Positions 13,930 to 15,573 of a stretch of DNA of 36,673 bases are shown one piece after another. Source of the stretch: Candidatus Eisenbergiella pullistercoris (lineage in GTDB: Bacteria; Bacillota; Clostridia; Lachnospirales; Lachnospiraceae); contig DXDD01000143.1 in assembly GCA_019115665.1 (NCBI GenBank), positions 1 to 36,673 of the forward strand. The letters are read 5' to 3'. The notes beneath the pieces are model-generated. The model saw nothing but the letters and a program-made list of their open reading frames with translations, did not search any database and was not told the origin of the DNA. Each line of letters begins with the position of its first letter. Positions within the stretch are counted from its first letter, which is position 1. A program made the translations under genes and the position numbers.

Positions 13930-14436
13930 TTATACATGGATCACCGCATACAGATAGGAATCCTGAATGCAGCCGTTCTTAAAGATGCTCTTCCGCTTGA
14001 TCCCCTCCAGGGTGAAGCCCGCCTTCTCCAGCACGCCGCGGGAGGCCAGGTTGGTGGAAAAGGGCTCCGAGCTGATGCGGACGAGCTTATAGCGGCGGAA
14101 GGCTTCCTCGACCATCTTCTGCACCGCTTCGGTCATGATCCCCTTTCTCCAGAAGGGCTCGCCCAGCCAGTACCCCAGCTCCGCGCTTCTGCTGTATACG
14201 TCGTCTCCGAACAGCAGGCTGATGCAGCCCACCGCTTCCCCGTCGATGACAATGGCTCTGGAAAACTGCGTTTTTCCTTCTTTTTCCATGCAGTCCTTCA
14301 CAAACCATTCCGCATCCTTCCGGGTATAGGGGTAGGGAAAGGAATCCCTGAGCCTTCCCGCAATCTTTTCATTATCCGCATATTTTGCCACAGACGGAAT
14401 ATATTCCTCAGACCACTCTTCCAATGTAAATTTCAT
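13930..14436 (-). CDS. GNAT acetyltransferase, RimJ/RimL-like
   Basis: 168 aa, a full single GNAT domain that uses acetyl-CoA to acetylate an amine. The order is beta2-3 around ARLRDSFPYPYTRKDAEWF, the CoA-binding region YWLGEPFWRKGIMTEAV (about 91-107, matching the YWxxxxxxGxGxxTEA form of RimJ/RimL relatives), and NLASRGVLEKAGF (about 130-142), a hallmark of this subfamily. The target (ribosomal protein, antibiotic or small amine) cannot be told. SD GGAGG lies 6 bases from ATG. The gene begins 28 bases after a strong terminator that ends a mini-ORF transcript. Confidence 0.9.
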   Translation of the reverse strand: MKFTLEEWSEEYIPSVAKYADNEKIAGRLRDSFPYPYTRKDAEWFVKDCMEKEGKTQFSRAIVIDGEAVGCISLLFGDDVYSRSAELGYWLGEPFWRKGIMTEAVQKMVEEAFRRYKLVRISSEPFSTNLASRGVLEKAGFTLEGIKRKSIFKNGCIQDSYLYAVIHV

Positions 14437-14463
14437 GTTTTCCTCCTTGCCGAAGCGTTTTCT

Positions 14464-14520
14464 CCAAAAAAGAAAACCGCCGGATTCGTTTGAAGATCTT
14501 CAAATCAATCCATGCGGTTT
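14464..14520 (-). terminator. Strong terminator between the mini-ORF and the GNAT gene
   Basis: Minus strand AAACCGC / GCGGTTT, GGATT / AATCC and the palindrome TTTGAAGATCTTCAAA stack into one long hairpin, followed by TCTTTTTTGG. It either ends the mini-ORF transcript or acts as an attenuator for the GNAT gene. Confidence 0.85.
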
Positions 14521-14563
14521 CCTGATTTTCCTCTTATTCAGACCACACAGACACAAGCCTCTC

Positions 14564-14595
14564 GTACCTGTATCTGCCGATTCTCCTACAGGTAC
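14564..14595 (-). other. Inverted repeat overlapping the mini-ORF stop
   Basis: GTACCTGTA and TACAGGTAC (9 bp, perfect) with a 14-base loop. The 5' arm on the transcript covers the last two sense codons and the TAG stop of the mini-ORF, so a terminating ribosome would prevent its folding. Confidence 0.7.
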
Positions 14596-14663
14596 CGGAA
14601 GTTCATAGGCATGCCCATGCGCATCATCATATTCTGTTTTGCAGCGGTCTTCTGTAAGCTCAT
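14586..14663 (-). CDS. Methionine-rich 25-aa mini-ORF (leader peptide or small protein)
   Basis: A 26-codon frame too short for the ORF track. The SD GGCAGGAGA lies 5-6 bases before ATG and a good promoter lies 44 bases further upstream. The peptide begins MSLQKTAAKQ and continues NMMMRMGMPMNFRYL. Seven of its 25 residues are Met including the start, with six Met in a nine-residue block (MMMRMGMPM). It is basic and has no signal peptide or membrane helix. A hairpin covers its stop and a terminator follows 66 bases later, before the GNAT gene. Possible roles are a translation-sensing leader, a Met-type copper-binding peptide or an independent small protein. I do not recognise a family. Expression is inferred from promoter, SD and terminator only. 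Confidence 0.6.
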   Translation of the reverse strand: MSLQKTAAKQNMMMRMGMPMNFRYL

Positions 14664-14706
14664 GTGTGTCTCCTGCCAATATCCGGTTCCGTTTTTAACT
14701 GAGACC

Positions 14707-14735
14707 AGTGTAACAAAAGAATGCGGAAAGGTCAA
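14707..14735 (-). promoter_or_regulatory. Promoter of the mini-ORF / GNAT leader
   Basis: Minus strand TTGACC, 17 bases, TACACT. The expected start is near 14700, giving a leader of about 35 bases before the mini-ORF ATG. Confidence 0.7.
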
Positions 14736-14754: not shown

Positions 14755-15498
14755 TTACCCCTCCTTCACCCGGTACAGCCACGCGTTTCCCTTCTTTCCC
14801 ACCCGCTCCACGGCTCCCGCGTCCGTCAGGATGGGAAGGGCGGACTGGGCAAGGGCGTTTCTGATGTGCGCCGCCTTCGCGAATTCCCGGAAGGTAAAGG
14901 GCTCCGCAAGGCCGTACGGGACGAACTGCATATAGTCCTGCGGGCAGTCGATGCACACTTCCTCCACGATCCGGGTGGGAATCCGGTCGAACCGGGTAGA
15001 GCCCTTCTTTTTATCCCGGCTCCAGCCGTTCAGCAGTCTGTATTCCTCCATATCAAGAAGCACCAGCTTCAGGCGCAGGCCGTCCCGGAGCAGATAGCGC
15101 CGGATCCGGTACAGCTCCTTAAAGGCCATGTAGGGATTTCCGGTCAGGGGGGATTTCCGGGGAGCGGACAGCTCGCCTGTCTCCTCGTCGATCCAGATCA
15201 GCCTTTTTTCATGGGGGATGGGATAGATGATAGTGACGGGGCAGAGAGGGAGAAAACGGTCCAGCTTCTCCCGCAGGCGGTCAAAGCTTCTGGTCTGGAT
15301 CTCCAGGATCTCTTCTCCGGTGCAGATATCCGCCACGCAGCCGCCGACGGAGATCTCATGGGTGCTCTCATCCGGCGCGTAATAATTTTTCAGGACGGCG
15401 TGGACCGTTTTTTCCGATAGCGTACCGATGCCGTTTCTCTCTCTGTCCTGTCCCACTATTTTTTCTTTTGCCAGGTTAAAACGTTTCTGATCGATCAT
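14755..15498 (-). CDS. Uncharacterised protein, possible PD-(D/E)xK nuclease fold
   Basis: 247 aa from the chosen ATG. I do not recognise a named family with certainty. Residues about 10-100 show GIGTLSEKTVHAVLKNYY, then HEISVGGCVADI, then EEILEIQTRSFDRLREKL. An alternating beta pattern with Asp in VADI and an ExQ in EIQT resembles the PD-(D/E)xK nuclease core, followed by a strand VTIIYPIP. The C-terminal 90 residues (FREFAKAAHIRNALAQSALPILTDAGAVERVG) look like a winged helix. There is no signal peptide or membrane helix. The longer start at 15558 would run across the darA promoter and has no SD, so 15498 is preferred, though its SD is also weak. Divergent from darA. Confidence 0.65.
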   Translation of the reverse strand: MIDQKRFNLAKEKIVGQDRERNGIGTLSEKTVHAVLKNYYAPDESTHEISVGGCVADICTGEEILEIQTRSFDRLREKLDRFLPLCPVTIIYPIPHEKRLIWIDEETGELSAPRKSPLTGNPYMAFKELYRIRRYLLRDGLRLKLVLLDMEEYRLLNGWSRDKKKGSTRFDRIPTRIVEEVCIDCPQDYMQFVPYGLAEPFTFREFAKAAHIRNALAQSALPILTDAGAVERVGKKGNAWLYRVKEG

Positions 15499-15544
15499 TT
15501 TGCTTTTTAATTCCGGATTATTCCGGATTTTATGCGAAAACCAT

Positions 15545-15573
15545 TTGCCATTTTCCATCCAAGTGATTATACT
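15545..15573 (+). promoter_or_regulatory. Promoter of darA
   Basis: TTGCCA, 17 bases, TATACT on the plus strand. The same bases read as TATAAT on the minus strand (15566-15571), so the -10 may serve both divergent genes; the minus -35 is poor. Confidence 0.65.

Follow-up and report, generated by a model that had tools for sequence, protein, structure and literature searches.

The locus and its question

What is the function of a methionine-rich mini-ORF of 25 residues that is furnished with expression signals of its own and is separated by a terminator from the acetyltransferase gene behind it? The question is raised by a 36,673-nucleotide stretch of DNA (the window) from Candidatus Eisenbergiella pullistercoris (Lachnospiraceae), for which a first reading of the sequence alone had offered three answers: a leader peptide with a Met run that responds to the supply of Met-tRNA or to stalled ribosomes, a Cu(I)-binding peptide, or a free small protein. 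The collective evidence of the current analysis makes it likely that this is the leader-peptide ORF belonging to a ribosome-mediated transcription attenuator, which would control the GNAT acetyltransferase gene via stalling at Met codons.

Expression signals of the mini-ORF

The mini-ORF (MSLQKTAAKQNMMMRMGMPMNFRYL*, 14586..14663) is read from the minus strand, with its ATG at 14663, its TAG stop at 14588-14586 and a Met run that provides the proposed control codons. The sequence-only reading was silent on the strand; the whole arrangement is on the minus strand, and all the elements it had listed are present there. They comprise a promoter at 14707..14735 (-35 box TTGACC at 14735-14730, a 17-nt spacer, and the -10 box TACACT with TG extension at 14712-14707; 9 of 12 consensus matches), the Shine-Dalgarno sequence AGGAGA (14669..14674), the 26-codon frame, a hairpin over the stop codon and an intrinsic terminator with GC stem and U tract (14519-14465), behind which the GNAT gene starts at 14436. 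A simple terminator scan did not list this terminator because its arm involves a 2x1 internal loop and a long loop. Folding of the leader transcript beats all 200 shuffles (z = -3.78). Immediately upstream of the leader promoter lies a 267-aa ORF (14755-15558, minus strand), which is found in near relatives and has no match in Pfam or NCBIfam.

Four such signals were said to occur together rarely at random. Promoter-like sites number 2 in 1.8 kb, as compared to 0.9 +/- 1.1 in shuffles, and the promoter match taken alone is within chance; as a set, the signals are kept in 11 Eisenbergiella genomes, and the case beyond chance is, as far as the genome sequences tell, a comparative one. The statement that no named family resembles the mini-ORF is upheld for Pfam, NCBIfam and Rfam, the mechanism itself being of a known kind. 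Across the whole window, the sole Rfam match at gathering is a tRNA. In the leader region the best cis-regulatory match of Rfam is the trpB motif (20 vs 59 bits, below gathering), no T-box is matched at the leader, and the search at E <= 10 returned chance-level matches only.

Conservation across Eisenbergiella

The element was recovered by DNA search in 10 of 12 genomes of the same genus, and the covariance search agrees, giving 11 of 13 Eisenbergiella genomes with the window's own counted. The GNAT gene lies behind the element in every one of the 11, and element and gene are both missing in the other two. Down to 76% DNA identity, the 11 genomes retain the Shine-Dalgarno sequence, the start, frame and stop of the mini-ORF, the hairpin over the stop and the terminator; the promoter boxes are visible in all 11 elements as TTGAYY...TACACT, an SD-like stretch is also found in relatives, and the E. 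tayi/porci clade has lost 3 nt with the frame intact.

Codons 2-12 of the mini-ORF show free variation, with many amino-acid changes and no synonymous bias, while Met13, Met14, Met18, Asn21-Phe22-Arg23, Leu25 and the stop are invariant. Within codons 2-20 the invariant positions common to both Eisenbergiella clades are the three Met codons, and Asn21 and Phe22 are invariant beyond. The E. tayi/porci clade has lost Met16, MxM spacing is present in the avian clade, and M20 occurs in most relatives. Absence of synonymous bias had been named beforehand as a sign against a genuine frame; bias is absent from codons 2-12, and yet the frame is open and has the invariant codons listed above, so that the outcome is mixed. 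Judged from the aligned sequences, this pattern is the one to be expected of a translated leader peptide with an unimportant N-terminal sequence, and not of a conserved protein. The search that had been suggested with the 25 residues, run against 299 family genomes, gave the query itself and chance matches only, and it is uninformative because the peptide is too short and too variable. The finding of the elements relied on the DNA search and the covariance model, and the covariance search, also suggested at the outset, found the same scaffold in Eisenbergiella and beyond.

A second conserved block is situated between the attenuator terminator and the GNAT start in 9 of the 11 elements (L004-L012). 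In the avian clade it holds a mini-ORF of the pattern M(N/K)E..PA....TT.NGG[LI].SM[LP]QPQ.* with third-position bias, and in nine genomes an invariant ATG in the block is immediately followed by a GCCGC...GCGGC hairpin. The block is missing from the window and from L003, apparently by deletion.

Mutually exclusive folds of the leader RNA

Five segments on the minus strand make up the predicted switch. Segment 1 (GUACCUGUA, 14587..14595) lies within the codons R-Y-L-stop and has segment 2 (CAGAUACAGGUAC, 14564..14576) as its partner; segment 2 can pair with segment 1 or 3, and segment 3 (CUUGUGUCUGUGUGGU, 14542..14557) with segment 2 or 4. Segment 4 (ACCGCAUGGAUU, 14507..14518) serves both as the 3' arm of the antiterminator and as the 5' arm of the terminator, whose 3' arm is formed by segment 5 (AAUCCGGCGGU) with the U tract (14465..14486). 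At the level of individual pairings, GUACYUGUA of segment 1 (the RYL-stop codons) is matched by UACAGGUAC of segment 2, CAGAUACAGG of segment 2 by CUUGUGUCUG of segment 3, and UGUGUGGU of segment 3 by ACCGCAUG of segment 4, while the whole of ACCGCAUGGAUU pairs with segment 5 to give the terminator.

Both folds are preserved in an alignment of GNAT, aspS and ABC leaders, the rows of which are few and related and include some on which the helices were first drawn: 95.6% of cells are paired in the fold 1:2 + 3:4 and 93.5% in the fold 2:3 + 4:5, as compared to at most 53% in slid controls. Helix 1:2 has 96.5% of its cells paired and six pairs with double changes; the aspS leaders show UA to CG (columns 7/45) and AU to GC (8/44). 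Helices 1:2 and 3:4 were both absent from the covariance model, R1, that found the first aspS leaders. The support for helix 1:2 is independent, because this helix is not in R1 and yet is kept, with compensatory changes, in the aspS leaders. Within the genus, segment 4 (12 nt) is invariant and its terminator partner, segment 5, varies; pairing with a second partner, segment 3, would account for this. A short ORF with Shine-Dalgarno sequence on the same strand, upstream of the structural gene, is found in 11 of 11 elements (translation being predicted); an intrinsic terminator stands ahead of that gene; and the antiterminator and terminator helices exclude one another, as is characteristic of a ribosome-mediated transcription attenuator. 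The putative switch anatomy is well supported.

In the proposed mechanism, a ribosome that reaches the stop codon would cover segment 1, with the effect that 2:3 and 4:5 form and transcription terminates before the GNAT gene. A ribosome held at the Met codons (M18 and the Mets upstream, together with M20 where it is present) would allow 1:2 and 3:4 to form, and the 3:4 pairing would pre-empt the terminator, so that the GNAT gene is transcribed. Ensemble folding of the RNA before segment 5, with the A site at codon 18, has 1:2 + 3:4 dominant in 7 of 8 elements; helix 1:2 no longer forms once segment 1 is covered. At equilibrium the completed terminator is favoured in all states; the switch must therefore be kinetic, as it is in other attenuators. 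Terminator dominance at equilibrium is also seen in the Asp leaders described below. In a quick fold test, which is crude, the His leader L137 gave no switch and the Asp leader L117 was partly unclean.

Sister elements and a codon rule

Model R1, built from Eisenbergiella sequences with helices 2:3 and 4:5 only, matched other genera in the family; the mini-ORFs MRNQRLFTELNRDDDR* and MYRLKFAKLHRDDDIWRL* stand before aspartyl-tRNA synthetase genes, and a third (MLQIMVQSHRLFSVIIEC*) stands before an ABC transporter gene. Two further Asp leaders came from a pattern search, and the Asp and ABC leaders match the GNAT leaders column by column in the alignment. Within the family, 18 of 299 genomes were matched by model R2, and further matches came from the order; a few weak ones are not leaders. 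Asp-run leaders before AspRS genes number 18 (DDD; DED in one), Arg-run leaders before intact argS four (e.g., MTTFFVNSLRRRERRRKFL*), with a fifth before a truncated argS, and His-run leaders before hisS two (MFTTLIAIQQLHHRHKQRL and MYNLNINIKCKHLHHHHK). The argS and hisS elements were all outside the training sets, and the synthetase family was checked on examples. The codon run in these putative synthetase leaders is matched to the downstream synthetase: the residue concerned accounts for 20% of the Asp, 30% of the Arg and 23% of the His leaders, and Met for 23% of the GNAT leaders. Relative to an anchor codon (TTG of TTG-TAG = 0), the runs occupy positions -6 to -4 (Asp), -8 to -2 (Arg) and -9 to -4 (His). 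The window's own genome contains an Asp leader (MYRNQTLQLHRDDDRERLYP*; L128, G000:C86:6760-6875) that has the same scaffold and precedes an aspS-like gene.

Arg-run leaders at L125, L126, L129 and L132 lie upstream of argS in Lachnospiraceae, those at L126, L129 and L132 having no Rfam family; the His-run leaders L137 and L138, which precede hisS, come from families of the order other than this one. An Asn-run leader (MYYSVKCFHLNGNNN*; L116, G084) carries the scaffold before a 5'-methylthioadenosine/SAH nucleosidase gene, and a leader with no clear codon run (MLQIMVQSHRLFSVIIEC*; L028, G380) precedes a drug-type (DrrA-like) ABC transporter. At L136 (G634) the Arg leader is intact, and argS is truncated after about 29 codons and followed by a sigma-factor-like gene. 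The Rfam scan of nine sister loci gave no family above gathering, and in the openly accessible literature that was searched, no report of the scaffold was found. On inspection, none of the weak covariance matches L031-L034, L052, L053, L127, L130 and L133 is a leader element, and the opposite-strand matches L002 and L045-L051 reflect the terminator hairpin, which is symmetric and is matched here from its other side.

The acetyltransferase behind the element

The gene in question (13930..14436, minus strand; Shine-Dalgarno sequence AAGGAGG at 14442..14448) encodes a RimL/MccE/YdaF-like GNAT acetyltransferase of 168 aa (Pfam Acetyltransf_3, 2.6e-23). Its relatives in the PDB by sequence (phmmer) are the YdaF-like 1nsl, MccE (2.6e-10) and RimL (2.2e-9), and Foldseek with the predicted structure, a moderate model (pLDDT 68.6), places MccE first at a TM of about 0.62. 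Identity to MccE/RimL is about 22-24% in the fold alignments, and the RimL family NF007539 of NCBIfam scores 47 bits against a cut-off of 184; we call the enzyme RimL/MccE-like, not RimL, because it falls so far below that cut-off. Fold, as predicted, and detectable homology are thus found to be shared with RimL and MccE. RimL and MccE act as acetyltransferases on aminoacyl-nucleotide compounds that poison synthetases. Acetylation by the two enzymes inactivates a broad range of aminoacyl adenylates (PMC3817062). We conjecture that the GNAT acetylates an inhibitor of the aminoacyl-nucleotide type. Slow decoding of Met codons would then let transcription continue into a detoxifying acetyltransferase, and synthetase poisoning would induce its own antidote.

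The nearest GNAT homolog outside the genus (L068, G027; 60% identity) lies directly behind a MerR-TipAS regulator (TipAS 1.9e-32), and this antibiotic-recognition neighbour would fit a role of the GNAT in drug response. That homolog has no such leader, which counts against our best explanation. The GNAT homologs in other genera (L068-L076) have no clear leader; at L069 a terminator is present just upstream of the gene, with no convincing mini-ORF.

The signal and its alternatives

In the GNAT leaders, Met is found at -7 in 11 of 11 and at -5 in 9 of 11, with more Mets upstream. Segment 1 is not covered by a ribosome that pauses at -7, and the run is thereby placed as a control-codon run of an attenuator should be, the sister runs lying at -9 to -2. 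We infer slow decoding by Met-tRNA as the signal: the GNAT leader would read Met codons because, in the synthetase leaders, the codon run fits the downstream gene. Concerning the original proposal of a Met-run leader peptide, the leader and its attenuator are supported by the exclusive helices and the synthetase homologs, and the Met part follows by extension of the codon-run rule. There are points against Met. The positions -6 to -4, which hold the Asp codons in the Asp leaders, are S-M-N or S-R-N in the GNAT leader; an unvarying Met is found at -7 and at positions upstream of it, but not closer to the anchor, two relatives being without Met at -5; and Met shortage would hamper initiation too. 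Since Asn21 and Phe22 are invariant as well, codons other than Met could carry the signal.

Among the alternatives, an antibiotic-sensing attenuator without codon specificity deserves the most serious consideration, even though we regard it as unlikely. The GNAT would here be a drug-modifying enzyme, and the drug would stall ribosomes on the nascent MSMNFRYL or slow them generally, as in the BmrB, Erm and MsrD leaders. Drug-induced ribosome-mediated attenuation exists in Firmicutes, BmrB of B. subtilis being an example (PMC4191407); conservation of the peptide is highest in its C-terminal NFR[YC]L*; and the closest GNAT outside the genus is the one right behind MerR-TipAS. However, the conserved block overlaps segment 1, which makes its conservation partly an RNA constraint, and the synthetase sisters all carry cognate codon runs, the GNAT leaders having their Met run. 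The same attenuator could also sense Asn21 (AAC, anchor -4), or another invariant codon, in place of Met. Asn21 is indeed invariant and occupies a position at which the synthetase leaders have Asp, His or Arg control codons, but it is a single codon compared to at least two or three cognate codons in every synthetase leader found, and the conservation of AAC-TTC may reflect RNA pairing; we judge this variant quite improbable.

The remaining alternatives fare considerably worse. A free functional small protein or a Cu(I)-binding peptide, with the terminator merely ending its own transcript, could account for the good expression signals and, in the avian clade, for the MxM spacing, but is very hard to reconcile with an N-terminal half (codons 2-12) that is unconserved, an MxM spacing that is broken by the loss of Met16 in the E. 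tayi/porci clade, and an element that is always tied to the same GNAT gene. The conserved helices, moreover, run past the stop into an antiterminator/terminator common to the synthetase leaders, and the neighbours tested, the GNAT and a SIMPL-domain protein among them, include no copper family. A chance mini-ORF beside an ordinary terminator would explain an unexceptional promoter match, but with frame, Shine-Dalgarno sequence, start and stop kept in 11 genomes and the alternative helices kept across genera, its probability is negligible.

The attenuator responding to Met codons, as the preferred reading, lends itself to a wider proposal, which we put forward tentatively, as a possibility with less than even prospects: the scaffold may have been re-keyed by swaps of the control codons (Asp, Arg, His, Asn, Met) and recruited from synthetase genes to an MccE/RimL-like acetyltransferase, so as to give a self-induced resistance circuit. 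MetRS poisoning or shortage of Met-tRNA would cause the stall at the Met run and so turn on the enzyme, which would acetylate the aminoacyl-nucleotide poison. If true, the Met-keyed copy on the acetyltransferase would couple tRNA charging to detoxification and would make an unknown resistance enzyme of gut bacteria directly testable. More generally, a reusable attenuator in which the codon run is fitted to the downstream gene would make signals predictable from sequence, and Rfam is without a model for this leader-attenuator scaffold.

Comparison with known systems

Leader-peptide attenuation is a classical mechanism. The enterobacterial trp, his, leu and thr attenuators resemble the current element in having a mini-ORF with control codons, alternative pairing of four to five segments and a terminator before the structural gene; here, in contrast, the target would be a GNAT and the control codons Met, and the scaffold is common to aspS, argS and hisS elements of Lachnospirales. 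In Rfam, nothing tied the element to the enterobacterial leaders by sequence. Synthetase genes of Firmicutes are usually regarded as T-box controlled. The T-box riboswitches likewise sense tRNA charging upstream of such genes and work by terminator and antiterminator, whereas the sensor here would be a translated leader. A His leader peptide upstream of hisS*/hisZ in bacilli was predicted by Naville and Gautheret 2010 (PMC2965389) and is similar in being a codon-run attenuator of a Firmicute synthetase-family gene that replaces the T-box. That report concerns His codons and bacilli only, whereas the current elements show Asp, Arg, His and Met runs in Lachnospirales, on a scaffold that also serves a non-synthetase gene. 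The BmrB leader of B. subtilis bmrCD (PMC4191407) shares the translated leader, the alternative stem-loops and transcription attenuation in a Firmicute; it senses ribosome-targeting antibiotics and controls an ABC transporter, whereas the gene here is a GNAT. For the GNAT itself, MccE/RimL provide the comparison, MccE as the closest fold match and both as being among the closest sequence matches in the PDB. What is new, then, is the single scaffold re-keyed by its codon run in Lachnospirales, together with the placing of a Met-run copy before a GNAT gene.
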